Shown: positions 12,192-41,028 of the stretch, one piece after another
How positions within the stretch are numbered: the stretch's first letter is position 1
Layout of the letters: every line of letters starts with the position of its first letter
Assembly (NCBI RefSeq): GCF_022059845.1
Contig: NZ_CP091851.1
Span: 2,604,001 to 2,668,000, forward strand
Length of the DNA stretch: 64,000 bases
Source of the DNA: Terrirubrum flagellatum
Lineage (GTDB): Bacteria > Pseudomonadota > Alphaproteobacteria > Rhizobiales > Beijerinckiaceae
Direction: 5' to 3'
Notes under the pieces: model-generated
Told to the model about the DNA's origin: nothing
Database searches by the model: none
Seen by the model: only the letters and a program-made list of their open reading frames with translations
Position numbers and translations under genes: made by a program

Positions 12192-13772
12192 ATGATCGAA
12201 GATTCAAACTGGCGGTTCTCCACGATCCCCGCTCTGTGCGAGCGCGCGGCGTCGATCTATGGCGACGCGATCGCAATTGAAGACGGCGTCTCCCTCACCT
12301 TCCACGACGTCGACGCGCTGCGAAGGCGGGCCGCGAAAGCGCTGATCGCTGCCGGCGTCTTAAAGGGCGATCGCGTGATGATCTGGGCGCCGAACAGCTA
12401 TCGCTGGTTCATCGCGGCGCTGGGATTGGTCACCATCGGCGCTGTGCTCATCCCCGCCAGTACGCGTTACAAATCGGCGGAGATCGAGGAACTCGCGGCG
12501 CGCAGCGGCGCGAGCTTTCTGTTTTCCGCCGGCGATTTCCTCGGCCAGTATTATCCCGATCAATTGACCGACGCCGCGCGCAGGCGGGTTCGGCTCGTCG
12601 TCGTGATCGAGCATGCGCGCACAGGCGATACGGACTGGGACGCGTTTCTCGCGAGCGGCGACGCGATCACGGATGAAGCCGTCGCCAAACGACAGCGCGC
12701 CGTCGGGCCCGATGATCTCTGCGACATGCTGTTCACGTCGGGCACGACAGGATTTCCGAAGGGCGTGATGTATGGCCACCGGCAGGCGCTGCAGGCCATC
12801 TCGGACTGGGCTGATCGCGTTGGCATTCGCCGCGGCGACAGGTTGCTCGTGATCCCGCCGTTCTTCCACGCTTTCGGCTATCGCTCCGGCGCGATCGTTT
12901 CGCTGATGCGCGGCGCGACGCTGATCCCGCAACGAACCTATGACGCCGACGACGTGCTGCGCCGGATCGCAAGAGACAGAATCAGCGTCATCCCCGGGCC
13001 GCCGACGATCTTCCAGGGCATGTTGCAGCACCCCGAGATGAAATCGTTCGACCGATCGAGTCTCAGGCTGGGCATCACTGGCGGCGCCGTCATTCCCGCC
13101 GTGCTCGTACGCCGCATGCGCGAGGAGCTGGGCTTCGAAGGCGTCGTCAACGGCTATGGCCTCACCGAATGCGGCGGCTATGGCGCGATGTGCAGCGCCG
13201 CCGACGACGATGAGACCATCGCCAACACCGCCGGCAAGCCATTTCCCGGCGTCGAGCTCGGCGTGATGGATGCGGATGGGCGCCTGCTCGAAAAGAACAA
13301 GCCGGGCGAGATCGTTCTGCGTGGTTATTTCGTCATGAAAGGCTATTTCAATGACGAAGAAGCGACGCGAAAGACAATCGATCCCGAGGGATGGCTACAC
13401 ACCGGCGACATTGGCTATGTCGACGACAAAGGAAATCTCCACATCGAGGATCGCCTGAAGGAGATGTATATTTCCGGCGGCTTCAACTGCTATCCCGCCG
13501 AGATCGAACGGTTGATGAGCGCGCATCCCGCCGTCGGCCAGATCGCGGTGATCGGCGTGCCGGACGAGCGGCTTGGCGAAGTCGGCAAAGCCTTTGTCGT
13601 GCTGCGCCCCGGCGCCGCGGCGACAGAACAGGAGCTGATCGCCTGGGCGCGCGAGACGATCGCGAACTTCAAGGCGCCGCGCAGCATCGAGTTCCGCGGC
13701 GCGCTGCCGACCAGCGCGCAAGGCAAGGTGCTCAAGAATAAATTGCGCGAGGAAACCCTCGCAGCGGGTTAA
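12192..13772 (+). CDS. fadD3: FadD3-like acyl-CoA ligase (HIP-CoA ligase candidate)
   Basis: 526 residues, class I adenylate-forming enzyme. The AMP-binding loop is FTSGTTGFPKG (Thr182 onward). Other motifs are YGLTECGGYG, the hinge GDIGYVDDKGNLHIEDR, ISGGFNCYPAEIE, and the C-terminal catalytic Lys in AQGKVLK. Overall it resembles FadD3, which activates the steroid C/D-ring propionate HIP with CoA in actinobacteria; the Comamonas counterpart is ScdA. It is a single-gene unit preceded by its own operator. Its end overlaps the end of the convergent SDR by four bases. Assignment to HIP rests mainly on the neighbouring Ipd genes; a different alicyclic acid is possible. Confidence 0.78.
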   Translation: MIEDSNWRFSTIPALCERAASIYGDAIAIEDGVSLTFHDVDALRRRAAKALIAAGVLKGDRVMIWAPNSYRWFIAALGLVTIGAVLIPASTRYKSAEIEELAARSGASFLFSAGDFLGQYYPDQLTDAARRRVRLVVVIEHARTGDTDWDAFLASGDAITDEAVAKRQRAVGPDDLCDMLFTSGTTGFPKGVMYGHRQALQAISDWADRVGIRRGDRLLVIPPFFHAFGYRSGAIVSLMRGATLIPQRTYDADDVLRRIARDRISVIPGPPTIFQGMLQHPEMKSFDRSSLRLGITGGAVIPAVLVRRMREELGFEGVVNGYGLTECGGYGAMCSAADDDETIANTAGKPFPGVELGVMDADGRLLEKNKPGEIVLRGYFVMKGYFNDEEATRKTIDPEGWLHTGDIGYVDDKGNLHIEDRLKEMYISGGFNCYPAEIERLMSAHPAVGQIAVIGVPDERLGEVGKAFVVLRPGAAATEQELIAWARETIANFKAPRSIEFRGALPTSAQGKVLKNKLREETLAAG

Positions 13773-14680
13773 CCGCCGCCATAGACGGGTTTCGGCGCCG
13801 GGCGCGCAGCCACAAGATCCCTCACTGCTGCTCCGATTTCGGACGCCTGCCAGCGCGCGCCCTTGTCGATCGTCGGCCCGTCGATCCAGCCGAGCGCAAC
13901 AGAAATTCGGCCGCCCCGCAGATCGAAAATCTGGCCGGTGATATCGCGCGAGGCTTCGCTGCAGAGGAAGGCGACAAGCGGCGCCATATTCTCCGGCGCG
14001 AAAATATCGAATTCGTTCTCCTTCGGCTTCATCTGTTCGGCGAAGGCGGTTTCGGTCATGCGCGTGCGCGCGTTCGGCGCAAGGCCGTTGACAGTGATCC
14101 CGTAGCGCGCCAACTCCGTCGCCTGCACCAGCGTCAGCGTCGCAATACCTGCCTTGGCGGCGGAATAGGCGCTCTGCCCGACGCTGCCCTGCAGGCCGGC
14201 GCCGGACGAGGTGTTGATGATGCGCGCATCGATGGGCTTTCCCGCCTTCTGCTGCGCGCGCCAATAATCGACGGCGTGACGGCTGGTGCAGAAATGGCCG
14301 CGCAGATGCACGCGCAGCACCGCGTCCCACTCCTCCGGCGTGCATGACACGAACATGCGATCACGGACAAAGCCGGCATTGTTGACGAGCGCATGCAGCG
14401 CGCCGAAGTGATCGAGCGCCGTCTGCACGATCCCTTTGCAGGCCTCGAAATCGGCGACGTCGGCATAACTTGCAACGGCTTCGCCGCCCTTCGCCCTGAT
14501 CTCGTCGACGACTTGCTGCGCCGCGCTCGCGCCGACGCCCGCCTCGCCATAAGTTCCAACGCCGAGATCATTGACGACGACTTTGGCGCCTTCGGCCGCG
14601 AGCCCCAACGCATAGGCCTTGCCGAGGCCATGACCGGCGCCGGTGACGATGACGATGCGCCCTTCGCAGATTCCGCCCAT
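13769..14680 (-). CDS. SDR dehydrogenase of the Hsd4/Rv3548c type
   Basis: 303 residues, longer than a classical SDR. Features are the NAD(P) glycine motif (TGAGHGLG), the VVVNDLGVGTYG segment typical of peroxisomal multifunctional enzyme-like hydroxyacyl-CoA dehydrogenases, NNAGF, and the YSAAK active site. Relatives act on 3-hydroxyacyl-CoA or hydroxysteroid intermediates. It probably oxidises a hydroxyacyl-CoA produced by one of the hydratases in the island. AAGGAG lies eight bases before the ATG. It is transcribed alone from its own operator copy, 46 bases upstream. Confidence 0.75.
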   Translation of the reverse strand: MGGICEGRIVIVTGAGHGLGKAYALGLAAEGAKVVVNDLGVGTYGEAGVGASAAQQVVDEIRAKGGEAVASYADVADFEACKGIVQTALDHFGALHALVNNAGFVRDRMFVSCTPEEWDAVLRVHLRGHFCTSRHAVDYWRAQQKAGKPIDARIINTSSGAGLQGSVGQSAYSAAKAGIATLTLVQATELARYGITVNGLAPNARTRMTETAFAEQMKPKENEFDIFAPENMAPLVAFLCSEASRDITGQIFDLRGGRISVALGWIDGPTIDKGARWQASEIGAAVRDLVAARPAPKPVYGGG

Positions 14681-14726
14681 GTCAGCTCCTTGTTGCGCGA
14701 TTTCACGCCCGTGCGGCTTTGCGCCA

Positions 14727-14742: not shown

Positions 14743-14743
14743 G

Positions 14744-15571
14744 TCAGCCAAGCGCGCGCCGCGCGGTCTCGAACGTCATTTGCGCCGATATTTCCAGCCC
14801 CATCGCCGCATTCTCAGGCGAGATGATCTCGACGCTGAACGGAATGATCACGCCCATGCCTTCGAGCGTCGCCGCGAAACCACGGAGATCGAAATCCCCT
14901 TCGCCGCAAAGTTTCCGGCGCATCGTATCCTCCGCAAGCGGGCCGGCTGGAGCGGCCGCGGCGTCGTTGACCTGCACGCAGAGAATGCGATCCGCAGGGA
15001 TGCGTTTCAGCTCCTGCAACGAAATTCCGGCGCGGAAGATATGCCAGCAGTCGATCGCGAGGCCGGCGTTATCAGGCGCGCCATCGAGCAGGTCGAGCAC
15101 GGCGTCGATGTCCCTGACGTTGCCCCAGGCGACGATCTCCATGGCGACGGCGACGCCCTGATCCGCAGCGCGGCGGCAGAGCGCGCGAAAACGTTCGCGC
15201 ATCAGCTTGAACGGAATTCCTCGCCTCGCGAGATCGCCGCCGACATTGAAAGAGGTTGCAGCGAAACCGCGACACGCGGCGAGCAGGCCGGCCTGCGCCT
15301 CTTCGCCCGTCACGCCATCCACGAACCAGTCGGCGCTGAATTCGACGCTGCGATGAACGACGCCATGGCGATCGAGAATCTCGCGCAGGTTTTCATCCGA
15401 GCGCCCGGCCGCGCGCTGCGCGAGATAATCGCGATAATGCAGGCAAAGCCCGACATAGCCGGCCTTAGTCGCCGCGCGAACGCGATCCTCGAAGGAATGA
15501 CGTGAGATCGTCGCGCCGCCCGGCATGACGCCGGAGATCGTGTGCGAGCTTGAGATCAGCGGCCGCGCCAT
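14744..15571 (-). CDS. TIM-barrel sugar-phosphate isomerase/epimerase-like protein
   Basis: 275 residues of the AP-endonuclease-2/xylose isomerase-like TIM-barrel family. Metal-ligand-like positions are seen in VAMEIVAWGNV, AIDCWHIFRAG and the VEIISPE strand. Members isomerise or epimerise sugars and related polyols, and some act as hydrolases or decarboxylases. It is the last gene of the six-gene operon that begins with the enoyl-CoA hydratase at 20684. Its place in a CoA-thioester pathway is unexplained. Confidence 0.65.
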   Translation of the reverse strand: MARPLISSSHTISGVMPGGATISRHSFEDRVRAATKAGYVGLCLHYRDYLAQRAAGRSDENLREILDRHGVVHRSVEFSADWFVDGVTGEEAQAGLLAACRGFAATSFNVGGDLARRGIPFKLMRERFRALCRRAADQGVAVAMEIVAWGNVRDIDAVLDLLDGAPDNAGLAIDCWHIFRAGISLQELKRIPADRILCVQVNDAAAAPAGPLAEDTMRRKLCGEGDFDLRGFAATLEGMGVIIPFSVEIISPENAAMGLEISAQMTFETARRALG

Positions 15572-15579
15572 CGCGCGGC

Positions 15580-16386
15580 TCAGGATTTCGGCGCGTGGCG
15601 CGCGAGAATATCGAGGAACAAAGGCGGCTCATCGCCGCCATGGGCCTCCAGGCTCGCGCCTGTCACGAAGCTTGCGAGCGGACTCGCAAGAAAGAGCGCC
15701 GCCGCAGCGATATCTTCGCCCGTTCCGAGGCGCTTCATCGGCAATGACTGTTCGATCGCCTGTCGCGCTTCGCCCGAGCCATAGTAGAGATCAGCCTTCT
15801 CGGTCGCGATCATGCCAGCGATGACGCAGTTGACGCGGATCTTCGGTCCCCACTCCTGCGCGAGACTGCGCGTCAGGCTGAGAAGCCCCGCCTTCGCCGC
15901 GCCATAGACCGCAGTTCCCGGCGATGGCCGCACCGAAGCGATGCTGGCGATATTCACGATCGCGCCGCCCTCTTCCTGAGCCGCCATCCATCGATGCGCC
16001 GCCTGCGAGAGATGGATCGGCGCGAGAAGATTGAGCGCGATGATCGCTTCTGAGAACCGCGCCGAAGCCGTGGCAGCGTCGGCGGCGGGGGAGCCACCGG
16101 CGTTGTTGACGAGCACGTCGATCCGGCCATGCTCGGCCGCGAGGCGATCGATAAATTCTTTCGCCTGATCGGCCTTGCGCACGTCGCAGGCGTGGAAGCC
16201 TGCTTTTCGTCCTCCGCCTTCGGGCAATTCATCCGGCGCATTGCGCCCGCAGATCGCGACCGTCGCGCCGGCGCGGAGAAACGCCTCGGAGATCGCGCGC
16301 CCGATGCCGCGCCCGCCGCCAGTGACGACGACGACGCGTCCGGGAAGCGCGATTGTCGCCGTGGCGGAAGGAAGCCTGTCGCTCAC
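15580..16386 (-). CDS. SDR family oxidoreductase
   Basis: 268 residues with the NAD(P) motif TGGGRGIG, NNAGG, the catalytic Ser region (NIASIAS) and YGAAK. The start is a GTG preceded by GATGAGGG, ten bases after the FadA6 stop. It belongs to the operon 20684-14744 with FadE31, FadE32 and FadA6, so it probably dehydrogenates a hydroxyacyl-CoA in one beta-oxidation turn. Substrate is not readable from sequence. Confidence 0.75.
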   Translation of the reverse strand: MSDRLPSATATIALPGRVVVVTGGGRGIGRAISEAFLRAGATVAICGRNAPDELPEGGGRKAGFHACDVRKADQAKEFIDRLAAEHGRIDVLVNNAGGSPAADAATASARFSEAIIALNLLAPIHLSQAAHRWMAAQEEGGAIVNIASIASVRPSPGTAVYGAAKAGLLSLTRSLAQEWGPKIRVNCVIAGMIATEKADLYYGSGEARQAIEQSLPMKRLGTGEDIAAAALFLASPLASFVTGASLEAHGGDEPPLFLDILARHAPKS

Positions 16387-16396: not shown

Positions 16397-17548
16397 TCAC
16401 AGCCGCTCGATGATGGTGACGTTCGCCTGACCGCCGCCCTCGCACATGGTCTGCAAGGCGTAGCGACCCTTGCGACGCTCCAGCTCCGCCAGCATCGTCG
16501 TCATGATGCGCGCGCCGGTCGCGCCAAGGGGATGACCCAGCGCGATCGCGCCGCCATTCACATTGACCTTCTCGCGCGGAATCTTCAGCTCCTTCATCCA
16601 AGCGAGCACCACGGAGGCGAAGGCCTCGTTGCATTCGAAGAGATCGATGTCTTCAATCTTGAGGCCGGCCTTCTCAAGCGCGTGACGCGTCGCGGGAATT
16701 GGCGCCGTCAGCATCCAGACGGGATCGGCGGCGCGCACTGACATATGATGGATGCGCGCGCGGGGCTTGAGCTTGTGATCCCTGACGGCGCGTTCGGACG
16801 CGACCAGCAGGGCAGCCGACGCATCCGCATTCTGGCTGGCGACGCCAGCCGTGACGCGCCCGCCCTCGACCAGCGGCTTCAAAGCGGCCATGCGTTCGAG
16901 CGTCGTATCGCGACGCGGCGTCTCGTCGATCGCGATATCGCCAACTGGTGCAATCTGACTTTTGAACCAACCTTCGTCGATTGCGGCAATCGCCCGCTGA
17001 TGGCTCGCAAGCGCGAAAGATTCCATCTCCTCGCGCGAGCAATCCCATTTCTCCGCGATCATCTCGGCGGAACGAAACTGGCTGACCTCCTGATCGCCAT
17101 AGCGCGCGCGCCAGCCGGGCGATGTCGAGAAGGGATCGGGAAATCCGTAAGCCTGCCCCGCCAGCATGGCGCCGGAAATCGGGATCGCATTCATCTGCTG
17201 CACGCCGCCGGCGACGACGAGATCTTGCGAGCCGCTCATCACGCCCTGCGCGGCGAAATGCACCGCCTGCTGGCCGGAGCCGCACTGGCGATCAACCGTC
17301 GTTCCCGGCACGTGCTCGGGCAATCCCGCGACGAGCCAGCAGGTGCGCGCGATGTCGCCAGCGAGCGGGCCGATCGTGTCGCAGGCGCCGAACACAACGT
17401 CCTCGACGGCGTTGGGATCAACACCCGTGCGATCCATCAGCGCCTTCAGCGCGACGCCGCCGAGATCAGCGGGATGCACGTCCGCGAGCGAGCCCTTCTT
17501 GCGGCCAACCGGCGTGCGCACGGCGTCGATGATGTAGGCTTCAGCCAT
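16397..17548 (-). CDS. fadA6: FadA6-like thiolase
   Basis: 383 residues. The nucleophile is Cys89 in VDRQCGSGQQA. The His region (GGAIALGHPLGATGAR) and second Cys (MCEGGGQANV) are intact. Long stretches resemble mycobacterial FadA6 (RYGDQEVSQFR, RARIHHMSVRAADPV), the thiolase of the KstR2 regulon. It should cleave a 3-ketoacyl-CoA made by FadE31/32, a hydratase and an SDR from the same operon. The ATG at 17548 lies inside the end of fadE32, an 8-base overlap showing coupling. Confidence 0.85.
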   Translation of the reverse strand: MAEAYIIDAVRTPVGRKKGSLADVHPADLGGVALKALMDRTGVDPNAVEDVVFGACDTIGPLAGDIARTCWLVAGLPEHVPGTTVDRQCGSGQQAVHFAAQGVMSGSQDLVVAGGVQQMNAIPISGAMLAGQAYGFPDPFSTSPGWRARYGDQEVSQFRSAEMIAEKWDCSREEMESFALASHQRAIAAIDEGWFKSQIAPVGDIAIDETPRRDTTLERMAALKPLVEGGRVTAGVASQNADASAALLVASERAVRDHKLKPRARIHHMSVRAADPVWMLTAPIPATRHALEKAGLKIEDIDLFECNEAFASVVLAWMKELKIPREKVNVNGGAIALGHPLGATGARIMTTMLAELERRKGRYALQTMCEGGGQANVTIIERL

Positions 17549-18605
17549 GCGCCGCATCCTTGCAGAAGGTGAGATCGGGACCAAGGGGATGCGCGAAGAC
17601 GCGCTCGGCGACGCGCGCGCGATGAAGCTTCGGCTCGCCCCAGGCGAAGTCCAGGGCCAGCGCGCGCTTTAGAAAGATATGCACGTCGACTTCCCAGGAA
17701 TAGCCCATGGCGCCGTGGACCTGCACCGCCGTGCGCGCCGCGACATCGGCGGCATCCGACGCCGCGAGTTTCGCGTGAGATACGCGGGCGCGCGATGCGA
17801 CGCTCTCAAGATGCATCTCTGCCGCCGCAGCATAGAGCACGGGACGCGCGAATTCGATCTTCACCTGCGCGGTGGCGAGGTGATGCTTGATCGCCTGATA
17901 GGAGCCGATCGGCTTGCCGAACTGCTGACGCTCCCTGGCGTAGGCGACGGCGAGATCGACGCAGCGCTGCGCGATTCCAAGCAGCTGAGCGGCGGTGAAG
18001 AGTGCGCCGCGATCGAACGCGCGCGCAAGCGCGAGCGTAGCTTCGGCGCTGCCCGCGAGGCGGGTCGCGTCCGCCGCCGAAAAATCAACAGTGAACAGTC
18101 GCCGAAAAGGATCGATGCTTGGCTGAACTGTCAGCTTCGCCGTCTTCGCATCAATGAGAAACAACGCGCCATCGCGCGCCATCAGAAGCGCGCCCGCCGT
18201 GCCCGCGTCGGCGACGAACGGATTTACGGGATGGCCAACAGCGACCGTGATATCGCCGGCGAGAGCCTTCTTCAGCCCAGCCACCGCTTTCGCGTCGCTG
18301 GCGAATTCCGCAAGCAGAGGCAGCGCGACGCCTGTGTTTTCGACGAACGGTTCGGGCAAGGCGAAATAGCCGCAGGCTTCCGCCGCCAGCACGAAATCCT
18401 GCGCCTCAAGCCCAAGTCCGCCGGCGTTCTCGGGAACGAGCAATCCCTGAAAGCCGAGTTCGGCGATGCGGCGCCAGCGCGCCTCATCGCGCGCCGCGCC
18501 CGATTGCATCAGCTTGCGTAACGCTGACGGCTCGCAAGTTTCCCGCAGCAGATCGCGCAGCGTGTCCGCCGCCATCTTCTGCTCGTCGGAGAAAGTGAAA
18601 TCCAT
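17541..18605 (-). CDS. fadE32: FadE32-like acyl-CoA dehydrogenase subunit
   Basis: 354 residues, acyl-CoA dehydrogenase fold. It has the QFGKPIGSYQAIKHHLA segment and the QVHGAMGYSWEVDVHIFLKR FAD-contacting end. It resembles FadE32, which pairs with FadE31 as an alpha2beta2 enzyme in steroid side-ring degradation; in such pairs only one subunit carries the catalytic base. GAGGC precedes the ATG at 18605. It lies ten bases after fadE31 and overlaps fadA6. ScdC1/C2 of Comamonas are the likely proteobacterial counterparts. Confidence 0.8.
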   Translation of the reverse strand: MDFTFSDEQKMAADTLRDLLRETCEPSALRKLMQSGAARDEARWRRIAELGFQGLLVPENAGGLGLEAQDFVLAAEACGYFALPEPFVENTGVALPLLAEFASDAKAVAGLKKALAGDITVAVGHPVNPFVADAGTAGALLMARDGALFLIDAKTAKLTVQPSIDPFRRLFTVDFSAADATRLAGSAEATLALARAFDRGALFTAAQLLGIAQRCVDLAVAYARERQQFGKPIGSYQAIKHHLATAQVKIEFARPVLYAAAAEMHLESVASRARVSHAKLAASDAADVAARTAVQVHGAMGYSWEVDVHIFLKRALALDFAWGEPKLHRARVAERVFAHPLGPDLTFCKDAAHG

Positions 18606-18615: not shown

Positions 18616-19779
18616 TCACGCGCGCGGCAGGCCGAGCATGCGCTCGGCGATAATGTTGCGCTGGATTTCGTTGGAGCCGGCATAGATCGGCCCCGCGAGC
18701 GAGAAGAAATAGCCATCGAGCCAGCGGCCGACATCGCCGGCGGCCGGCGCCGCGCGCAGGAGTTCGGCGCGCGCGCCAAGGATCGACAGGGCGGTGCGAT
18801 GCAGCGCGATGTCGAGTTCGGACCAGAATATCTTGTTGACGCTTGCTTCGGCCCCGATCTGTCCGCCCGCCATCAGGCGCGACGCGGTTGCATAGATCGA
18901 GAGCGCATAAGCGTCCGCATCCATGACGCTTTGCATCACGGCGTCGCGCGTCGAATATTCCACCTCGTCTTGATGCGCCTGATAGAGTTCAATCAGCCGC
19001 TTCGCCGCCATCTGGAATCGCGCCGGGCTGCGCAGCATCAGGCCGCGCTCGAAGCCGGCCGTCGCCATGCAGATCGACCACCCCTCGCCTTCGGCGCCGA
19101 GCCGGTTGAAGGCGGGAACGCGCACGTCTTCCAGAAAGATTTCCGCAAATCCTGTCTCGCCATCGATCTGCGGAATCGGCTGCACGCGCACGCCCGCTGT
19201 GTCGAGCTTGAAGAAGATCAGCGACAGTCCCTTGTGGCGCTGCGATTGTGGATCGCTGCGAAACAGGCCAAATGCCCAGTCCGCGAAGACAGCACGCGAC
19301 GACCAGATCTTGTGGCCGCTGAGCACATACTCGTCTCCGTCGCGTCGCGCGGTCGAGCGCACGGCGGCGAGATCGCTGCCCGCTTGCGGCTCGGACCAGG
19401 CCTGCGCCCAGATTTCATCGCCCGAGGCCATCGCCGACAAAAAGCGCGCCTTCTGTTCCGGCGTTCCGTATTCCATCAATGTCGGGCCGAGCAGAAAGAT
19501 GCCGTTCTGGTTGACGCGCAGCGGCGCGCCGGCGCGATAATATTCTTCCTCGAAAATCAGCCACTGGATGAGATCAAGCCCGCGCCCGCCATAATCCCTC
19601 GGCCAGGTGACCATGCCCCAGCGGCCTTCATTCAGCGTGCGCTCCCACCGGCGATGCGCCTCGAATCCTTCGCGCGACGCGTCGAAGGACGGCAGTGGAT
19701 CGCGCGGAACATGCGCCTCCATCCAGGCGCGCGCTTCGGCGCGAAAAGCCTTTTGCTCAGGCGTATAGGCGAGGTTCAC
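18616..19779 (-). CDS. fadE31: FadE31-like acyl-CoA dehydrogenase subunit
   Basis: 387 residues. Typical acyl-CoA dehydrogenase landmarks are WAQAWSEPQAGSDLA (FAD/substrate loop), KIWSSRA and the C-terminal GPIYAGSNEIQRNIIAERML. It aligns along its length with mycobacterial FadE31, partner of FadE32/FadE33. The start is a GTG at 19779, fifteen bases after the hydratase stop. The pair probably introduces the double bond into the propionyl side chain of HIP-CoA or an analogue. Confidence 0.82.
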   Translation of the reverse strand: MNLAYTPEQKAFRAEARAWMEAHVPRDPLPSFDASREGFEAHRRWERTLNEGRWGMVTWPRDYGGRGLDLIQWLIFEEEYYRAGAPLRVNQNGIFLLGPTLMEYGTPEQKARFLSAMASGDEIWAQAWSEPQAGSDLAAVRSTARRDGDEYVLSGHKIWSSRAVFADWAFGLFRSDPQSQRHKGLSLIFFKLDTAGVRVQPIPQIDGETGFAEIFLEDVRVPAFNRLGAEGEGWSICMATAGFERGLMLRSPARFQMAAKRLIELYQAHQDEVEYSTRDAVMQSVMDADAYALSIYATASRLMAGGQIGAEASVNKIFWSELDIALHRTALSILGARAELLRAAPAAGDVGRWLDGYFFSLAGPIYAGSNEIQRNIIAERMLGLPRA

Positions 19780-23268: not shown

Positions 23269-23270
23269 GG

Positions 23271-24149: not shown

Positions 24150-24274
24150 ACCGTTCTCCCCCGGCGCTCCGCCGGCTTCCTGCCCTTGGGCTTTCCGCCA
24201 ACGCGCGGCGACCGCCAGCGTAGCGAAACAGCCCTCCCCTGCCCGAGTGATGTTCGGCAGGGCCTGATTCAACA

Positions 24275-30084: not shown

Positions 30085-30123
30085 CGGCCTCACTATTCAG
30101 CAGACAGAAAATTCGTGCGGCGC

Positions 30124-34158: not shown

Positions 34159-34617
34159 TCAGAAATAATAGCGGCCGATCGCGTCGGCGACGCAGGCCGG
34201 CTTCTGTCCGCCCTCGATCTCGATCGTGACGCGGACGATAGTCTGGACCGCCTTCTCCGTCAGCAACTCCGCCTTGACGAGCTCACCGACGCCGCGCACG
34301 CGCGAATTCACCTTGACAGGCGCGGGAAAGCGCACGCGGTCGCAGCCATAATTCACGCCCATGGTCATGCCTTCGGCGCGAAACAGCTCCGGCAGGAACA
34401 TGTTGACCAGCGACAGCGTGAGATAGCCATGCGCCACCGTCGCGCCGAACGGGCCTGACTTCGCGCGCTCAGGGTCGACATGGATCCATTGATGATCGCC
34501 CGTCGCCTCGGCGAAGAGATCGATGCGCTCCTGATCGATCAGCAGCCACTCGCTGGCGCCGAGCGCACTGCCGACATTCGTGACCGCCTCATCAGCCGAT
34601 CTGAAGACGAGACCCAT
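34159..34617 (-). CDS. MaoC-like (R)-specific enoyl-CoA hydratase
   Basis: 152 residues with the hydratase-2 motif FAEATGDHQWIHVDPERAK, giving the catalytic Asp/His pair, and the following GATVAHGYLTLSL. It should hydrate a 2-enoyl-CoA to the (R)-3-hydroxyacyl-CoA. It shares one base with the ipdF stop (TGATG) and is part of the ipdC operon. It would provide the R-hydroxy substrate for the Hsd4-like SDR at 13769. Confidence 0.8.
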   Translation of the reverse strand: MGLVFRSADEAVTNVGSALGASEWLLIDQERIDLFAEATGDHQWIHVDPERAKSGPFGATVAHGYLTLSLVNMFLPELFRAEGMTMGVNYGCDRVRFPAPVKVNSRVRGVGELVKAELLTEKAVQTIVRVTIEIEGGQKPACVADAIGRYYF

Positions 34618-35411
34618 CAGGCGCGCTGGCTCGACACGGATACGACTTCGCCGACCATGTATCCGGCGTAGTCGCTCGCAAGAAACATGATGACGTTCGC
34701 GATCTCCCAGACCTCCGCCGGGCGCCCGAACGCCTCCTGGCGCGACAGCGAATCGAGAAATTCCTGCGGCGCCGATCGCTTGAGGAATTCATGCATGGCG
34801 ATCGAGGGCGAGACCGCGTTGATGCGCACGCCATGTTCGGCCGCCTCGACAGCGCTGCAACGGGTCAGCGCCATGACGCCGGCCTTCGCCGCGGCGTAAT
34901 GCGCCTGCCCCTTCTGCGCGCGCCATCCCAGCACCGACGCATTGTTGATGATCGCGCCCGCGCGACGCGGAATCATCTTCTTCAGCATGGCGCGCGTCAT
35001 GCGGAACGTGCCGGTGAGCGTCACGTCGAGAACCAGGCTCCATTCCGCGTCAGTCATTTCAACAACAGGCTTGAGCCCGCCAAGGCCAGCGTTGTTGACG
35101 AGCACATCGACGCCGCCAAGCTCCGCTTCCGCCGCATCGACCAGCGCCTGCACCTGCGCCTCGTCGGAGACGTTGCACATCAGGCGCGAGATTGGCGTAT
35201 CCGGCGCGACGGCAGCCAGCTTCTCCACCGCTTCATCAAGCCGACGCTCATGAATGTCGGAGATCATCAGTGCGCGGCAGCCCTCCTCCAGCGCGCGCTT
35301 CGCCGTTGCAAAGCCGATGCCGACGCCGGCCGCCGCGGTGATGAGAACGGACTTTCCCTTGAGCAGCCCGTGACCTGGCACGTAGGCCGGAATCGGCGGC
35401 GCTTCGCTCAT
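34617..35411 (-). CDS. ipdF: IpdF-like SDR dehydrogenase
   Basis: 264 residues. It matches mycobacterial IpdF closely: PGHGLLKGKSVLITAAAGVG, ISDIHERRLDEA, NNAGLGGLKPV, NNASVLGWRAQ, YAAAKAGVMALTRCS, VSPSIA. IpdF acts on 5-hydroxy-HIC-CoA-type intermediates of the C/D-ring pathway. The ATG at 35411 overlaps the echA20 stop by four bases (ATGA). A longer open frame upstream only shadows echA20. Confidence 0.87.
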   Translation of the reverse strand: MSEAPPIPAYVPGHGLLKGKSVLITAAAGVGIGFATAKRALEEGCRALMISDIHERRLDEAVEKLAAVAPDTPISRLMCNVSDEAQVQALVDAAEAELGGVDVLVNNAGLGGLKPVVEMTDAEWSLVLDVTLTGTFRMTRAMLKKMIPRRAGAIINNASVLGWRAQKGQAHYAAAKAGVMALTRCSAVEAAEHGVRINAVSPSIAMHEFLKRSAPQEFLDSLSRQEAFGRPAEVWEIANVIMFLASDYAGYMVGEVVSVSSQRA

Positions 35412-36184
35412 GCCTTGTTCGCCTTCGCGCGATCGAAATCCGCGTCCCGCTTCGCAACGAACGCGTCGCGCGCCTCCTGCGATTCCGCCGTCATATAGGC
35501 CTGCGCTGTGAAGCCCTGCTCCCAGCGATACTTTTGTTCGAGATCGCCATCCTCGACGCCGTTCAGCGCTTCCTTCGCCAGTCGGATCATGGTCGGGCTC
35601 TTGGCCGCGATCTTGCGCGCCAGCTCTATCGCCGCTTCGCGCAAGTTTTCGCGCGGCACGATCTTCTCCACGGCCCCAAGACGGTGGGCTTCGGCCGCAT
35701 CGATCATCTCGCCGGTGAAATACATCTGGCGGACCTTCTGCACCGGGAACATGCGCTGGAGGTGCGCACCGGCGCCGAGCGCGCCGCGATCGACTTCCGG
35801 GACGCCAAAATGCGCGCAAGGCGACGCGATGATGATGTCCACTGCGCCGCAGATGCCGATGCCGCCGCCGAGCACGAAACCATGCACAGCCGCGATCGCC
35901 GGCTTCAGCCCGCGATGAAGCGCGCGGAAGGTCTCATAGTTGCCGGCATTGACTTCGGGGATCAGGCCCGGATTGGCCTGCAGCTCCTTGATGTCGACGC
36001 CGGCGCAGAAGCCGCGCCCCTCGGCGCGGATCACGATCACGCGGACATCGGCGTTGGCGTTAAGGGCGTCGATCTCCTGCGACAGGCTGCGCCATCCCGC
36101 GCTGTTCAAGGCGTTCACCGGCGGCGCATCGATGATGATTTCACCGACGCCGTCTTCAATCACAATCCGAAATGGCCCGCTCAT
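35408..36184 (-). CDS. echA20: EchA20-like crotonase-family hydrolase
   Basis: 258 residues, crotonase fold, similar to mycobacterial EchA20: DAPPVNALNSAGW, AEGRGFCAGVDIKELQ, NGF-type VHGFVLGGGIGICG, FGVPEVDRGALGAGAHL, YRWEQGFT. EchA20 opens ring D of the HIEC-CoA-type intermediate by hydrolysing a C-C bond, rather than hydrating an enoyl-CoA. It overlaps the ipdC stop by four bases (ATGA). The Comamonas counterpart is ScdY. Its position between ipdC and ipdF supports the assignment. Confidence 0.86.
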   Translation of the reverse strand: MSGPFRIVIEDGVGEIIIDAPPVNALNSAGWRSLSQEIDALNANADVRVIVIRAEGRGFCAGVDIKELQANPGLIPEVNAGNYETFRALHRGLKPAIAAVHGFVLGGGIGICGAVDIIIASPCAHFGVPEVDRGALGAGAHLQRMFPVQKVRQMYFTGEMIDAAEAHRLGAVEKIVPRENLREAAIELARKIAAKSPTMIRLAKEALNGVEDGDLEQKYRWEQGFTAQAYMTAESQEARDAFVAKRDADFDRAKANKA

Positions 36185-37275
36185 GCCGCTCCCTTCCTCG
36201 CGACATCAGGCGCCGCAAGCGCCGTCAATCGATCGATGCTCACCTGAGCTTCACGCATGATGCGCGCGATGAGCTCGACGCAGCTCTCAAGTTTCTCGAT
36301 CGCCGCAGCAGCCTGCCCGCTCGGCAGCAATCCGTTGTCGGGATCGCCATCGCGCACGCCGCGCTGCACGAGCGTCGGCAAGTTCGGCGCCATCACGGTC
36401 TGCGCGAAACTTGAATCCGCAGCCGACGTCGCCTTGAGACCCAGCTTGATCATGTCGATCATTCCAAGGCCCGCCTCCGCGCCCCATCGGCGCGCATGCG
36501 CGATCGACATCGCGAGCCGCGCGGGCAGACCCATGCCCTCGAGGCGGCGAATCTCGTCATTCTCGATGAAGCGCTGCGGCAGACCGTCGACCGCGAGCGT
36601 CACGCGAATATGCGCGGGATCCTTCGTCGCGAGATAGCGATCGAGCGCGCTTTTCGGCACCGGCGAGTCAGTCGTCATGAGAAAGCGCGTCCCCATGGCG
36701 ATTCCCGCTGCGCCATAAGCGAGAGCCGCCGCGAGCCCGCGCCCATCGAAGAAGCCGCCGGCCGCGACAACGGGGACTTTGACGGCGTCGAGCACTTGCG
36801 GCAGCAGCACTGTCGTCGGCGATGCGCCGGTGTGGCCGCCGCCCTCGCCGCCCTGCACCGTGATCACATCGGCGCCGAGTTCCACCGCTTTCACCGCGTG
36901 TTTCAAGGCGCCAACTGTCGGCATGCAGATGACGCCGGCGTCCTTCAGCCGCTTGATCGTCTTCGCATCAGGTCCGCGGCCGTAGCTCACGGCGCGCACC
37001 TTATGCCTGATCACCATCTCAAGCACTTCCTCCGCGTTCGGCTGGAACATGTGGAAGTTCACGCCGAACGACGCCGAAGTCAGCGACTTCACCTTGAGAA
37101 TTTCGGCTTCGACTTCGCCAGCCGGAATCGTCGCGCCGGCGAGAAAGCCGAAACCTCCGGCGTTTCCGGTCGCGGCCGTCAGCTTCGCGTCGGCGACCCA
37201 TCCCATCGCCGTCTGAACGACAGGATATCGGCAGCCGAGGCGATCACACAGCTCGGTTCGCAATCCTTCAACCAT
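36181..37275 (-). CDS. ipdC: IpdC-like flavin-dependent reductase (nitronate monooxygenase family)
   Basis: 364 residues, FMN TIM barrel of the 2-nitropropane dioxygenase family. Shared with IpdC are PVVQTAMGWVADAKL, ITVQGGEGGGHTG (FMN site and His), AAGGFFDGRGLAAAL, and AIAMGTRF-type AGIAMGTRFL. IpdC performs the double-bond/reduction step needed between EchA20 ring opening and IpdAB; ScdK is the Comamonas equivalent. It heads the six-gene unit ipdC-echA20-ipdF-maoC-SnoaL-OYE, and an operator copy lies 69 bases upstream. A TTG four codons downstream is a possible alternative start. Confidence 0.86.
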   Translation of the reverse strand: MVEGLRTELCDRLGCRYPVVQTAMGWVADAKLTAATGNAGGFGFLAGATIPAGEVEAEILKVKSLTSASFGVNFHMFQPNAEEVLEMVIRHKVRAVSYGRGPDAKTIKRLKDAGVICMPTVGALKHAVKAVELGADVITVQGGEGGGHTGASPTTVLLPQVLDAVKVPVVAAGGFFDGRGLAAALAYGAAGIAMGTRFLMTTDSPVPKSALDRYLATKDPAHIRVTLAVDGLPQRFIENDEIRRLEGMGLPARLAMSIAHARRWGAEAGLGMIDMIKLGLKATSAADSSFAQTVMAPNLPTLVQRGVRDGDPDNGLLPSGQAAAAIEKLESCVELIARIMREAQVSIDRLTALAAPDVARKGAA

Positions 37276-37360: not shown

Positions 37361-37381
37361 ACCGGCGGCGTCAGCGCCTCG

Positions 37382-38140
37382 TCAATAGAAGACGCGTCCG
37401 CCATTCACCAACAGGGTCTGGCCGGTGATGAAGCGCGCCTTCTCGCTCGACAGGAAGACCACCGCATTGGCGATATCCTCGGGCTCGCACAATTCGCCCA
37501 GCGGGATCATGTTCTTTGCGCGTTCATAGGCGTCCTGTGGAATGCGCTTCATGGCGCGCGTCTTGGTCGGGCCAGGGCAGATCGCATTCACATTGATCTT
37601 GAAAGGGCCGAGCTCGCGCGCGAGCGTGCGCGTGAAGCCGAGCACGCCGGCCTTCGCTGCGGCGTAGTCGGCGGTGCCGATATCGCCATTGACGGCGGAA
37701 TCCGAAGAGATGCTGACGATCTTGCCTGATTTGCGTTCGCGCATGGATTCGACGACCTGGCGCGTGCATATCAAGGTCGTCATCAGCGACACGTCGATCA
37801 CGAATTCCAGCGTCGAGGGCTTGGCGAGCCAGAATTCCGAATAATTCTCGCGCGCGGTCTGGCCGATATTGTTGAGCAGCATGTCGACCGGGCCGAAATC
37901 CTTGACGATGCGGCCGAACGCCCCTTCCACCTCGGGCAGTTTCGTCATGTCGCCCACGATTAGCAGAGCGCGCACGCCTTGCCCGCGCGCCATGTCGGCG
38001 GTCTCCATCAGCGCGTCGGCCTCGCGATCGAGAATCGCGATATCGGCGCCTTCCGCCGCATAAGCGAGCGCAGCGGCGCGGCCGATGCCGTTGCCGGCGC
38101 CGGTGATGACGGCGATCTTTCCAGCGAATTGCTTGCTCAT
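37382..38140 (-). CDS. SDR family oxidoreductase
   Basis: 252 residues with TGAGNGIG, NNIGQ, the Ser region SISSDSAVNG and YAAAK. Motifs are complete. It overlaps the SnoaL-like gene stop by four bases and has GAGGAG upstream. It is the last gene of the unit SDR-fadE-fadE30-SnoaL-SDR. It probably oxidises a hydroxyl of a ring-derived acyl-CoA or a hydroxylated remnant such as those from bile acids; this is inference. Confidence 0.75.
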   Translation of the reverse strand: MSKQFAGKIAVITGAGNGIGRAAALAYAAEGADIAILDREADALMETADMARGQGVRALLIVGDMTKLPEVEGAFGRIVKDFGPVDMLLNNIGQTARENYSEFWLAKPSTLEFVIDVSLMTTLICTRQVVESMRERKSGKIVSISSDSAVNGDIGTADYAAAKAGVLGFTRTLARELGPFKINVNAICPGPTKTRAMKRIPQDAYERAKNMIPLGELCEPEDIANAVVFLSSEKARFITGQTLLVNGGRVFY

Positions 38141-38715
38141 GACGTCTCCTCGATTTTTGCATCGGCGCCGTCGCGCCGTTGAAACAGGCTCAGCAATCGA
38201 TAGGACAGGTCGCTCGCACCCGGCTGGCCATGCGGACTGCCGGCGGCGAAATCGCTATAGGCGCCGAGATCGGCCGGCCTGCGCGTCGCCCAATCGAGCG
38301 TGATGCTTCGCCGCGTGAAACCCCATCGGCCAGCGCGCTTTTCATAGCGGTCGAGGCTGCGGCTGCCGGTAATCACCTCCGTCGCATCGGGCCGGTGCGT
38401 GCGGTGATAATTGAGCTTGTAGACCTCGCCCTCGGCGCGATCGCCGTCGATCACGAAGAGCGCGTTGACGACATAGTGCGCCGTCGCTTCGTAGCGCGCG
38501 AGCGCAGACTGCACCCAGACCGCATATTCCGCCGGCGAGCCCCTGAACATGTCGCCATGTTCTTCGATCGCGCCGGGGTGATAGAGACTTTCGAGCAGCA
38601 CGAAGTCGCGCCGGTCGACGGCGCGCGAATAGGATTCGACCAGCCGACGCAAGGCATCTCGCGCCGCGACATCGCGCAGATCGCTCTCGGCCAATCCGAA
38701 GAGAGGCTCGCTCAT
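38137..38715 (-). CDS. SnoaL/NTF2-like protein 2
   Basis: 192 residues with the SnoaL-type start (DLRDVAARDALRRLVESYSRAVDRRDFVLL) and a following HPGAIEEHGDMF segment with potential catalytic Asp/His. It overlaps both neighbours by ATGA junctions, so it is tightly coupled to FadE30. It belongs to the same fold family as the protein at 33510 but is clearly diverged. A dehydratase or isomerase role on a hydroxylated intermediate is possible. Confidence 0.7.
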   Translation of the reverse strand: MSEPLFGLAESDLRDVAARDALRRLVESYSRAVDRRDFVLLESLYHPGAIEEHGDMFRGSPAEYAVWVQSALARYEATAHYVVNALFVIDGDRAEGEVYKLNYHRTHRPDATEVITGSRSLDRYEKRAGRWGFTRRSITLDWATRRPADLGAYSDFAAGSPHGQPGASDLSYRLLSLFQRRDGADAKIEETS

Positions 38716-39908
38716 GTCAGCGATCCCCGCGGCTCGCGCGGCATGCCGAGACCCTGCTCAGCGATAATGTTGAGCTGAATCTCGTTGGTTCCGCCATAGA
38801 TCGTATCCGCGCGGCTGAAGAGGAAAAGCTGCTGCAACCGGGCGCGACGCGGATCGTCGCTTATGATGTTTGCGTCGCCGCCGAGCACGTCCATCGCGAG
38901 CCGGCCGAGATCGCGATGCCAGTTCGACCATTGATACTTGTACCCCAGCGCCTCGCGCCCGAGCGGCGCGGAGCCATCTGCGCCGAGCACGCGCAAGGCG
39001 CTGAAGCGAAGGGCGCGCAGACCAATCCAGGCGCGCGCGATGCGTTGGCGAATGACCGGCGCGTGCGCGGCGCCATTCTCGCGCGCGATGTCGATGATGA
39101 GTTGCAGCTCCTCAGCGAAGACCATCTGCTGACCGAGCGTCGAGACGCCGCGTTCGAAGCCGAGCAGCGCCATGGCGATGCTCCAGCCTTCGCCGGGTTC
39201 GCCGACGACATCCTCCGCCGACGCGCGCGCATTGTCGAAAAAGACCGAATTGAATTCCTCGCCGCCGCCCATCTGCCTGATAGGATGAATCGTCACGCCC
39301 GGCTGGCGCAGCGGCAGCATCAGGAAGATGAGCCCCTTGCGGCCGACAGAACCTTCCTCGCAGCGCGCGAGCGCGAAAATCCAGTCGGAGACATGGGCGA
39401 GCGAGGTCCATATCTTCTGGCCTGACACGAGCCAGTCGCCGGTCGCAGGATCGCGCGTCGCGCGCGTGCGCAGCGCTGCGAGATCGGAGCCTGCGCCTGG
39501 CTCCGAATAGCCCTGGCACCAGAAGTCTTCCCCGCCGAGAATGCGCGGGAGAAAGCGCGCCTTCTGCGACTCTGTTCCGTAGGCGATCAATGTGGGGCCG
39601 ATCAGCCCTTCGCCGATGTGGCCCATGCGGCCGGGGCCGCCGGCGCGCGCATATTCCTCCTGAAACGCGACCTGCTCTGTGATCGAAAGCCCGCGTCCGC
39701 CATGCTCCCTTGGCCAACCGACGCATGTCCAGCCGCCGGAAGCCAGTTCGCGCTCCCAGCGCTTGCGCAATTCGGGCAACGCATCGCCGTCGCCGGCGTG
39801 TCCGCGATGGCGCAGCGGCGCGAAGTCTCCTACGAGATGCGCGCGCATCCAATTGACGACTTCGGCGCGCAGCGCCGTCGTCTCGTCCGGAACCGCACGC
39901 TCAGGCAT
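38712..39908 (-). CDS. fadE30: FadE30-like acyl-CoA dehydrogenase
   Basis: 398 residues. It follows FadE30 throughout: TCVGWPREHGGRGLS, EEYARAGGPGRMGHIGE, WCQGYSEPGAGSDLA, QKIWTSLAHVSDW, FERGVSTLGQQMV, DTIYGGTNEIQLNIIAEQ. FadE30 dehydrogenates HIP-CoA or 5-OH-HIP-CoA in actinobacteria. The ATG at 39908 lies eight bases inside the upstream FadE gene, indicating a heteromeric partner; ScdM1/ScdM2 of Comamonas form such a pair. Confidence 0.84.
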   Translation of the reverse strand: MPERAVPDETTALRAEVVNWMRAHLVGDFAPLRHRGHAGDGDALPELRKRWERELASGGWTCVGWPREHGGRGLSITEQVAFQEEYARAGGPGRMGHIGEGLIGPTLIAYGTESQKARFLPRILGGEDFWCQGYSEPGAGSDLAALRTRATRDPATGDWLVSGQKIWTSLAHVSDWIFALARCEEGSVGRKGLIFLMLPLRQPGVTIHPIRQMGGGEEFNSVFFDNARASAEDVVGEPGEGWSIAMALLGFERGVSTLGQQMVFAEELQLIIDIARENGAAHAPVIRQRIARAWIGLRALRFSALRVLGADGSAPLGREALGYKYQWSNWHRDLGRLAMDVLGGDANIISDDPRRARLQQLFLFSRADTIYGGTNEIQLNIIAEQGLGMPREPRGSLT

Positions 39909-41028
39909 GTTCGTGCTCGTCAAAGAGATGCTGCGCGACGCGCTCGAGATGCGTTTCCGGCGCGCCGAACCAGGCGGCGCTCGCCTGGGCGCGCTTAAAA
40001 TAGAGGTGCGGATCATACTCCCAGGTGAAGCCGACGCCGCCATGAAGCTGGATCGCCTCCTCGGCCGCGAGATTGTAGATTTCCGTAGCGGCGACGAGCG
40101 CGCCAGCGACGTCGAGCGACGCCTCCCAGTCATCAGCGCCCTGATCGACGCCTGACGCCGCGCCCCACACGAGCGAGCGCGCCGTTTCGATCTCGATCGC
40201 AAGTTTCGCGCAGCGATGCTTAACCGCCTGAAAGGAGGCGATCGCGCGGCCGAACTGCACGCGTTCGGCGATATAGGCGAGAGTCAGATCTAGGCAGGCC
40301 TGGGCGCCGCCGACCTGCTCCGCCGCCAGCAACAGCTTCGACCAATCAGCGGCGCGCGTCGCGCCATGCGCGAGCCGCGCGGGATCATCGACGCGCGACG
40401 CCGGCGCACGGTCGGCATGGAGGCGGCCAATGTTGCGCGTCGCATCGAGCGTGCGATGCGACTGGAGATGCAGGCCAGCGCTCCGCTCAAGCGTGAACAG
40501 GCCGATCTCGCCGTCGAACCGAGCGGGCGCGAGAATGATGTCCGCATTCCTGACATCAAGGACCTGATCGACGACGCCGGAGATGACATATTCTCCCCCG
40601 GCGCGTTCCGCCGTCAGCAAGATGTCGTTGACCAGAGAACCACTCGCCGGCCATGCGACTGTCGCTGCACATTCGCCCGCTGCAATGCGCGGCAGCCAGC
40701 GCGCCTGCGCCTCGTCGCTCGCGGCGTGAGCGAGCAGAGGCGCGGCGCAGCCCGCCGTCGCGAAGAAAGGCGCACACAGGAGTCGCCGCCCCGTCTCCTC
40801 CAACAGCAAGGCGAGATCGAACAGGCCAAGCCCCAGACCGCCATGGCGCTCGGGGATCGCGACGCCGCACCAGCCCAGCTCGCGCGACAGCGCGTTCCAG
40901 ATTGCGTCATCGCGCGATGCGCCGGCATCGATCACACGCCTGACCGCCGAGGATGACGATCTTTCCGCGAGGATGCGCGCGGCCTCCTCGCGCATCATTT
41001 CCTGGTCAGGCGAAAGGGCGAGCCTCAT
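39901..41028 (-). CDS. Acyl-CoA dehydrogenase, probable partner subunit of FadE30
   Basis: 375 residues, acyl-CoA dehydrogenase fold with GLGLGLFDLALLLEETGR near the N-terminus, RVQFGRAIASFQAVKHRCA and LHGGVGFTWEYDPHLYFKR. The N-terminal substrate loop is degenerate compared with FadE30, as in non-catalytic partner subunits. GGAGG lies before the ATG. The overlap with fadE30 suggests an equimolar complex. Confidence 0.8.
   Translation of the reverse strand: MRLALSPDQEMMREEAARILAERSSSSAVRRVIDAGASRDDAIWNALSRELGWCGVAIPERHGGLGLGLFDLALLLEETGRRLLCAPFFATAGCAAPLLAHAASDEAQARWLPRIAAGECAATVAWPASGSLVNDILLTAERAGGEYVISGVVDQVLDVRNADIILAPARFDGEIGLFTLERSAGLHLQSHRTLDATRNIGRLHADRAPASRVDDPARLAHGATRAADWSKLLLAAEQVGGAQACLDLTLAYIAERVQFGRAIASFQAVKHRCAKLAIEIETARSLVWGAASGVDQGADDWEASLDVAGALVAATEIYNLAAEEAIQLHGGVGFTWEYDPHLYFKRAQASAAWFGAPETHLERVAQHLFDEHEHA

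Follow-up and report, generated by a model that had tools for sequence, protein, structure and literature searches.

A proposed steroid ring C/D degradation island with two LIV-type importers in Terrirubrum flagellatum, an organism that probably feeds on half-digested steroids shed by other microbes

The window analysed here is a 64,000-nucleotide stretch of the Terrirubrum flagellatum genome (bases 2604001-2668000 of contig 1; genome G000, 6.38 Mb in four contigs, estimated completeness 99.97%). From fadD3 to a gene for a LuxR-type regulator (~12192-53317) it carries an island whose genes have counterparts in the islands of three relatives, as judged from the stretches fetched from those genomes. 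At its core is a near-complete gene set for degradation of steroid rings C and D, that is, of 3aα-H-4α(3'-propanoate)-7aβ-methylhexahydro-1,5-indanedione (HIP). A first-pass annotation had described such a unit at 12192-41028; the genes do lie there, but its end was wrong, since comparison with the three relatives carries the shared island on to ~53317. All the counterparts it had named are found at the coordinates given below, on the evidence of family cut-offs, structure matches and trees. For the acyl-coenzyme A (CoA) dehydrogenases that it called FadE30, FadE31 and FadE32, two paired sets are present as candidates. Scd letters were assigned from how the genes are arranged in a Comamonas testosteroni record (L166, L212) and from the available parts of published TA441 gene lists (PMC13101464, PMC6895838); those of ScdE, ScdJ and ScdM were read from gene order. 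In the lists, scores are in bits, percentages are identities, and SDR stands for short-chain dehydrogenase/reductase. The correspondence between NF family numbers and Mycobacterium tuberculosis gene names is, FadD3 excepted, our assumption. The degradation genes are as follows.

12192..13772, plus strand: FadD3/ScdA-type HIP-CoA ligase (NF005801, 682 bits, equivalog cut-off 657; 68-69% in the three relatives).
13769..14680, minus strand: SDR, ScdE counterpart by gene order (NF005861, 458 bits, cut-off 373; 59% to Comamonas).
15580..16386, minus strand: SDR (NF005893, 354 bits, cut-off 255).
16397..17548, minus strand: thiolase FadA6/ScdF (NF005865, 675 bits, cut-off 591; active-site Cys motif present).
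17541..18605, minus strand: acyl-CoA dehydrogenase partner of the ScdM pair (NF050027, IpdE2, 145 bits, below the cut-off of 450; 43% to Comamonas).
18616..19779, minus strand: acyl-CoA dehydrogenase of the ScdM pair (84-86% in relatives; 61% to Comamonas).
19794..20684, minus strand: crotonase, ScdN counterpart (NF006140, 434 bits, cut-off 280; 67% to Comamonas).
26288..27496, minus strand: thiolase, ScdJ counterpart by gene order (62% to Comamonas).
28399..29193, minus strand: IpdB/ScdL2, COCHEA-CoA hydrolase beta subunit (7.7e-56 to 6co6_B).
29206..30093, minus strand: IpdA/ScdL1, COCHEA-CoA hydrolase alpha subunit (4.1e-89 to 6co6_A; tree).
30124..32217, minus strand: FadJ-like hydratase/3-hydroxyacyl-CoA dehydrogenase, in the place that tesB/hsaC holds in 56 of 80 loci.
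34159..34617, minus strand: MaoC hydratase, ScdD counterpart (59% to Comamonas).
34617..35411, minus strand: IpdF/ScdG dehydrogenase (NF005880, 438 bits, cut-off 336).
35408..36184, minus strand: EchA20/ScdY ring-D hydrolase (NF005925, 371 bits, cut-off 260; tree).
36181..37275, minus strand: IpdC/ScdK NPD-family flavoprotein (61% to Comamonas; 77-79% in relatives; tree).
38712..39890, minus strand: acyl-CoA dehydrogenase of the ScdC pair (59% to Comamonas).
39901..41028, minus strand: acyl-CoA dehydrogenase, IpdE2 family, of the ScdC pair (NF050027, 193 bits, below the cut-off of 450; 38% to Comamonas).

In a comparison with the PDB, IpdA matches the solved IpdA at 4e-89 and the next family, glutaconate CoA-transferase, at 1.8e-25; IpdB matches the solved IpdB at 7.7e-56 and the next CoA-transferase family at 1e-12. 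The glutamate altered in structure 6coj, which we take to be the catalytic residue of IpdA, is kept as E103 and is invariant in eight aligned IpdA proteins. That the island pair might be ordinary CoA-transferases is ruled out by these structure matches together with the IpdA tree. There, the window protein forms one clade with those of an Aminobacter strain, a Rhizobiaceae metagenome-assembled genome (MAG) and an Oricola MAG (support 100/99), inside the steroid clade, and the same four-island clade recurs inside the steroid clades of the IpdC (100/100) and EchA20 (99/99) trees. The first-pass annotation had proposed a steroid ring C/D set and named such alignments as one check on it; in sequence, the three proteins nest where it expected them.

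The relatives come from a scan with an IpdA alignment over genomes of 84,980 species, from which the best 80 loci were kept; more relatives may exist. Nearest by IpdA among these 80 are Aminobacter sp. AP02 (78%), the Rhizobiaceae MAG (74%) and the Oricola MAG (68%). They represent the Phyllobacteriaceae, Rhizobiaceae and Ahrensiaceae, families which we take to belong to the Hyphomicrobiales, Alphaproteobacteria. All 38 window genes compared have a stop-free match in the fetched stretch (not the whole genome) of each relative, the weak cases being a gene of the old yellow enzyme (OYE) family in Oricola (39%, 61% covered) and the SDR at 44687 (33-41%). The one TAA in the Aminobacter IpdC match, at codon 355, is the end of the gene itself. 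A 39th gene, at 49347-50240, has no match in the three fetched islands, and nine genes flanking the 12192-53317 span have no counterpart in the relatives' fetched stretches; a gamma-carbonic-anhydrase-like gene at 53341 gives matches of 33-38% there. For 11 genes compared between the window and Aminobacter, the nonsynonymous rate (dN) is 0.136-0.360 and the synonymous rate (dS) 0.83-1.34; the resulting ratios of ~0.12-0.29 indicate purifying selection.

The first-pass annotation had also reported the upper pathway (rings A and B) as absent, a claim that covered the window only. At genome level no convincing KshA, HsaC or HsaD was found, and KstD gave a partial match. The sole PF19298 (KshA_C) match in G000 scores 23.6 bits against a cut-off of 23.3 (C1:5416255), and this protein was rejected as KshA: it is an oxygenase of the VanA (vanillate demethylase) type, with 157 bits for VanA_C, and a reductase lies next to it. 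By comparison, KshA_C scores 188-284 bits in all seven other genomes of the same class with IpdA at 52-70% identity. The KshA search was run on the genomes of 46 of the 80 named loci, 34 loci being left out. Among these 46 IpdA-positive genomes, 39 score 188-315 bits, four score 71-115 bits and may hold other Rieske oxygenases, and three lack a convincing KshA (0, 0 and 24.6 bits). These three are exactly the island relatives.

For HsaC, HsaD and KstD, ten IpdA-positive, KshA-positive genomes served as positives and three genomes without close IpdA as negatives; the model alignments include rows from some positives (G710 and G719 for HsaC; G691, G540 and G719 for HsaD; G719 for KstD), so that the scores are partly by construction. 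The HsaC/TesB model finds nothing at E 1e-5 in G000, Aminobacter or the Rhizobiaceae MAG, against 308-523 bits in 10 of 10 positives; two negatives likewise give nothing, and the third (G255) 94 bits. With the HsaD/TesD model G000 scores 78.6 bits and the island genomes 69-81, against 280-461 in nine of ten positives and 60-65 in the three negatives. KstD yields in G000 a single match at 1e-40, a partial one of 284 bits to a protein on contig C2 (704-922 bits in 10 of 10 positives), and none at that threshold in Aminobacter or the Rhizobiaceae MAG.

Domain searches of G000 offered other candidates. Among 34 PF00903 places, the two two-domain candidates scanned for HsaC gave a catechol 2,3-dioxygenase (over cut-off) and no family at 1e-30; a third, C1:680893, was not scanned, and the HsaC model found none at 1e-5. 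Among 47 PF00890 places, those scanned for KstD are an L-aspartate oxidase, an NF009472 dehydrogenase, a flavocytochrome-like protein, a tricarballylate-dehydrogenase-like protein and the ambiguous C2 protein; C1:4880953 (the strongest) and C1:1439012 were not scanned, and the only hit of the KstD model at 1e-40 was the C2 protein. Separately, contigs C11 and C34 of the Oricola MAG (G679) carry three KstD-like genes within ~15 kb and an extradiol dioxygenase gene; no convincing KshA or HsaD was found in that MAG.

In 56 of the best 80 loci tesB/hsaC stands directly before ipdA; it was not seen there in 24, the three relatives included, although two of these 24 have a flank too short to judge. 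In the window a fadJ-like gene takes this place, as it does in the full-pathway genomes G619 and G540, whose HsaC lies on other contigs. G619 and G540 also have 10 and 7 KshA_C matches, respectively, and several KstD and HsaC copies. Both are neighbours of the window clade in the IpdA tree, with weak support (80/62), but the IpdC tree places them elsewhere; given this weak support and conflict, the fadJ-ipdA arrangement may or may not have preceded the loss.

Window IpdC belongs to a supported beta- and gammaproteobacterial group (100/99), and EchA20 to a less supported one of this kind (85/99) in which G619 and G540 are also placed; both are apart from the sphingomonads. A sample of 296 other genomes of the order yielded IpdA-like proteins in just four, with identities of at most 39%. 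Together with two further distant proteins (34-42%), these four were set aside as CoA-transferases lying outside the steroid clade, and the six genomes, which have distant CoA-transferases only, give no KshA match. Tree placement and rarity in the order point to horizontal transfer of the set, or of parts of it; the upper half may have been lost or never received.

The island also encodes two importers of the LIV type, a class of ATP-binding cassette (ABC) system.

20727..21479, minus strand: importer 1, ATPase LivF (78-80% in relatives).
21466..23271, minus strand: importer 1, fused permease LivM and ATPase LivG (PF02653 and PF00005).
23271..24275, minus strand: importer 1, permease LivH (family match; counterpart in relatives).
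24363..25592, plus strand: LIV-type substrate-binding protein 1 (PF13458).
42000..42749, plus strand: importer 2, ATPase LivG (PF00005 and PF12399).
42742..44676, plus strand: importer 2, two fused permease domains (PF02653 twice; 71-73% in relatives).
45536..46801, minus strand: LIV-type substrate-binding protein 2 (2.7e-107 to 3n0w_A; PF13458).

Importer 1 is complete, with a binding protein, two permease domains and two ATPases. Importer 2 has a binding protein, two permease domains and one ATPase, and a LivF of its own was not found in the window. The relatives carry a second ATPase, LivF2, between livG and the fused permease gene of importer 2; the best window match of the Aminobacter LivF2 is LivF1, at 32%. 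LIV importer genes of at least 50% identity occur within 10 kb of ipdAB in three of the best 80 loci, which are the three relatives, and one further locus has a single ATPase match at 37%. At least 9 kb is available on both sides of ipdA in 52 of the 80 loci, and importer absence is weaker in the others. None of the seven importer genes compared has a match in the clusters fetched from six full-pathway genomes.

Between fadJ and the MaoC gene lie two genes that recall bile-acid metabolism.

33510..34139, minus strand: SteC/Hsh1-type SnoaL dehydratase, predicted to remove the 12beta-hydroxyl from HIP derivatives (PF13577; 61-66% to syntenic SnoaL).
32408..33538, minus strand: OYE-family reductase, possible SteD/Sor1 analogue (family right, identity only 30-37%).

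Upstream of ipdA, the Comamonas record has the order SDR, SDR, SnoaL, OYE, tesB, which a table in the available part of one source equates with SteA, SteB, ORF7 (Hsh1) and ORF6 (Sor1) (PMC8399759); the equation of SteC with Hsh1 rests on this table. The window SnoaL is 66% identical to that of Comamonas and 61-66% across six loci. Two of these loci are from Pseudomonas, and there the SDR-SnoaL-OYE run stands some kb ahead of tesB-ipdA. For SteA and SteB the window offers only generic SDR matches of ~28-42%. SteC is described as removing the 12beta-hydroxyl from HIP derivatives (PMC13101464, in the part available), and the presence of a SteC-type SnoaL makes 12-hydroxylated, bile-acid-derived HIP a likely substrate of the island.

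Two regulators belong to the island.

46867..47691, minus strand: TetR regulator (PF00440 and PF17932; 47-57% in relatives' islands).
52025..53317, plus strand: LuxR-type regulator (PF00196; 40-46% in relatives' islands; 34-42% in four of six full-pathway clusters).

The label "KstR2-type" of the first-pass annotation does not hold for them. Against KstR2 structures the TetR protein scores only 35 bits and ranks 40th, with other TetRs ahead of them, and the KstR2 box has one match against 0.84 expected, a chance level; gene order and nearest relatives are proteobacterial, of the Comamonas scd type, rather than mycobacterial. As far as tested, for the island TetR and the box but not a KstR2 elsewhere in the genome, the TetR is not a KstR2 orthologue and the set is HIP-type, but not KstR2-type in regulation. 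With the KstR2 regulon of M. tuberculosis and Rhodococcus it does share FadD3, IpdA, IpdB, IpdC, IpdF, EchA20, FadA6 and paired FadE proteins, but the island has no KstR2-orthologous TetR or standout box, and its sequences nest with Proteobacteria.

The closest likeness is to the steA-tesR region of Comamonas TA441: every scd gene listed for that region (ScdC1C2, D, E, F, G, J, K, L1L2, M1M2, N and Y) and SteC have counterparts in the island, with several local gene pairs retained. Most scd products and SteC are 56-68% identical to the C. testosteroni record, two dehydrogenase partners being at 38% and 43%. The ScdA counterpart is assigned by family, no FadD3 being present in the fetched Comamonas stretches. 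Unlike Comamonas, the island (and the genome, as far as tested) lacks tesB, and steA and steB were not recognised; the island adds the two LIV importers, the FadJ-like gene and others, in a rearranged order. Alphaproteobacterial HIP genes are described, in the available parts of the sources, from the SD cluster of Novosphingobium (Caenibius) tardaugens and from Sphingobium Chol11 (PMC6895838, PMC12882949, PMC8399759). C. tardaugens differs in having kshA and kstD homologues elsewhere in its genome (PMC6895838), and LIV importer genes of close similarity are missing from the sphingomonad loci fetched. For dedicated uptake of intermediates of steroid catabolism there is a parallel in Rhodococcus jostii RHA1, where, in the accessible text of one source, CamM, of the major facilitator superfamily (MFS), takes up perhydroindane cholate metabolites and the ABC system CamABCD takes up metabolites with an aromatic A-ring (PMC8399759). 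RHA1 is a complete degrader that uses an MFS protein for perhydroindanes, whereas the island has LIV-type ABC importers and no recognised upper pathway. The same text terms uptake in bile-acid degraders largely unknown.

Other genes of the island have less specific assignments.

14744..15571, minus strand: xylose-isomerase-like TIM barrel protein (PF01261; 45-57% in relatives; no match in the six full-pathway clusters).
25671..26279, minus strand: Glyoxalase_4 protein of the vicinal oxygen chelate (VOC) type (PF13669; 61-66% in relatives; a single 37% match in six full-pathway clusters).
27596..28366, minus strand: SDR (70-73% in relatives; no match in the six full-pathway clusters).
37382..38140, minus strand: SDR (77-81% in relatives; 30-40% in other clusters).
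38137..38715, minus strand: second SnoaL-like protein (61-69% in relatives; a single 34% match elsewhere).
41063..41818, minus strand: SDR (63-69% in relatives; 26-36% in other clusters).
44687..45484, minus strand: SDR (just 33-41% in relatives; probably no specific part).
47706..49250, minus strand: second acyl-CoA ligase (59-62% in relatives; 27-33% elsewhere).
49347..50240, minus strand: 3-hydroxyisobutyrate dehydrogenase (TIGR01692, 305 bits, cut-off 292; not found in relatives' islands).
50254..51132, minus strand: SDR (55-59% in relatives; no match in the six full-pathway clusters).
51129..51902, minus strand: SDR (45-50% in relatives; no match in the six full-pathway clusters).

The extra enzymes common to the four islands (second CoA ligase, three SDRs, second SnoaL) hint at a modified HIP substrate. 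Past the island, at 55954-60442, genes for Nuo51-type and molybdopterin oxidoreductase proteins appear by eye to be part of an NAD-dependent formate dehydrogenase operon. A tRNA scan gave no match. A recent foreign origin judged from base composition was rejected: island G+C is 0.637-0.652 in 4-kb steps, similar to the rest of the window apart from a dip at 4001-8000 (integrases were not searched for). This dip, a few kb outside the island, takes G+C down to 0.567, the other 4-kb steps lying at 0.637-0.659.

The reading favoured here, at a little better than even confidence, is that of a conserved import-and-degrade island for HIP-type hydrindane acids made by other bacteria. The organism probably eats half-digested steroids shed by other microbes. 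For the chemistry we rely on what is known from Mycobacterium, Rhodococcus and Comamonas, as far as described in the available parts of the sources (PMC8399759, PMC13101464, PMC6678751, PMC5380842); we infer the transport substrate and growth on HIP, and the reaction order is carried over from other organisms. HIP and its 12beta-hydroxy derivative, shed by bacteria that open rings A and B, would reach the periplasm and be taken up by one or both LIV importers. FadD3/ScdA would form the CoA ester, and SteC/Hsh1, perhaps with the OYE protein, would remove the former 12-hydroxyl of bile-acid-derived HIP. ScdC, ScdD, ScdE and ScdF would then shorten the propionyl chain, and IpdF/ScdG and IpdC/ScdK prepare the ring system. 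Ring D could be opened by EchA20/ScdY and ring C by IpdAB/ScdL, with ScdM, ScdN, FadJ and the thiolases finishing the conversion to central CoA esters. HIP compounds are reported from the culture medium of mutants (PMC12175502, PMC6678751) and steroid intermediates from soil slurries (PMC8540908), in the parts of these sources available. A wider proposal is that a guild comprising Aminobacter, the Rhizobiaceae MAG, the Oricola MAG and the window organism kept only the lower half together with two dedicated importers and lives partly on HIP-type remnants, 12-hydroxylated ones included. Such an evolved division of labour has a chance falling slightly short of even.

Several points weigh against the import-and-degrade reading. 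The sources consulted, in the parts available, do not report wild-type degraders releasing HIP in nature. Binding protein 1 gives weak generic matches only (59 bits), binding protein 2 matches structures labelled branched-chain amino-acid binders, and, as RHA1 takes up perhydroindanes through the MFS protein CamM, import of HIP by an ABC system lacks a precedent. Gene absences carry less weight in two of the three relatives, which are MAGs, and the Oricola MAG has one extradiol enzyme at 229 bits and three KstD-like proteins at 415-465 bits, which speaks against a clean rule. With HsaD, one of the ten positives, G348 (a genome of 2.0 Mb, 92% complete), reaches only 76 bits although KshA and HsaC are present. 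The KstD-like gene of G000 sits in a catabolic cluster on C2 with Rieske and ChsH2-type proteins. ScdB (C9 hydrogenase) and ScdH (7alpha-dehydratase), whose roles are known from TA441 (PMC13101464, in the part available) and which are needed there, have no mapped counterpart, no reference sequence having been compared. Lastly, the extra enzymes kept in four islands suggest a substrate unlike plain HIP.

This last point leads to the proposal that the island degrades another hydrindane or alicyclic acid, for example a fragment of a terpenoid from plants or microbes, and that HIP enzymes were recruited to this purpose, which is unlikely but deserves weight. It would account for three SDRs (27596, 50254, 51129), the TIM-barrel protein and the importers being present in four islands and not in six full-pathway clusters, where the second CoA ligase, second SnoaL and VOC protein are far less similar. 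Such recruitment is at odds with the 56-68% identity of the scd products and SteC to Comamonas (partners at 38% and 43%; FadD3 not compared) and the retained IpdA glutamate, as well as with the action of SteC on 12beta-hydroxylated HIP derivatives, as described in the available text (PMC13101464). Of the three options raised in the first-pass annotation, this one retains some probability; canonical upper genes elsewhere in the genome are disfavoured, and the two conserved importers speak for scavenging.

Degradation of whole steroids by a non-canonical upper route, with ring A/B enzymes too divergent or unrelated for the KshA, HsaC and HsaD models to detect, is likewise unlikely. One candidate is the cluster at ~174-206 kb on C2, with a KstD-like flavoprotein, Rieske oxygenases, a ferredoxin reductase, a CoA-transferase III, a ChsH2-type oligonucleotide-binding-fold (OB) protein and a thiolase-like protein, and Oricola with its KstD-like and extradiol proteins fits the same scheme. 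Over 562 aa the C2 flavoprotein is 37.5% identical to a KstD from actinobacteria, and it reaches 424 bits with PRK12844 (cut-off 789), but it scores equally well, at 430 bits, against 4-oxocyclohexanecarboxylate dehydrogenase. The cluster has no close counterpart in the relatives' fetched stretches (their whole genomes were not searched for it), and G000 has no HsaC-like extradiol enzyme at E 1e-5.

It is very improbable that HIP is supplied inside the cell by an estrogen 4,5-seco or anaerobic 2,3-seco route that makes KshA and HsaC unneeded. Estrogen degraders do reach HIP by a path free of KshA. However, the HsaC model picks up three extradiol enzymes (234-360 bits) in Sphingobium estronivorans, one of which, we would guess, is OecC, and none in G000, where OecB, OecC, EdcC and AtcABC were not searched by reference. 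The 2,3-seco route likewise ends at HIP, according to the part of the source available (PMC5790920). A degenerate, decaying remnant of a former steroid pathway would explain the missing upper genes but is hardly credible, given stop-free matches for 38 of 38 genes in relatives of three families and dN/dS of ~0.12-0.29 in the 11 genes measured.

No description of organisms restricted to rings C and D, or of this island, was found in searches limited to open-access papers. One survey, in its accessible part, lists steroid degraders from genome searches with 25 hidden Markov models (PMC4810484), and metagenome matches for steroid degradation have been assigned to Rhizobiales (PMC5790920, in part). 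If the import-and-degrade reading is true, lower-pathway genes such as ipdAB alone do not mark whole-steroid degraders, and these Rhizobiales matches could be re-examined. Aminobacter sp. AP02, a named strain rather than a MAG, would make the idea testable. Release of intermediates by steroid degraders is established; the island would then provide candidate importers for HIP-type acids, and its hosts would be a consumer for leaked HIP.

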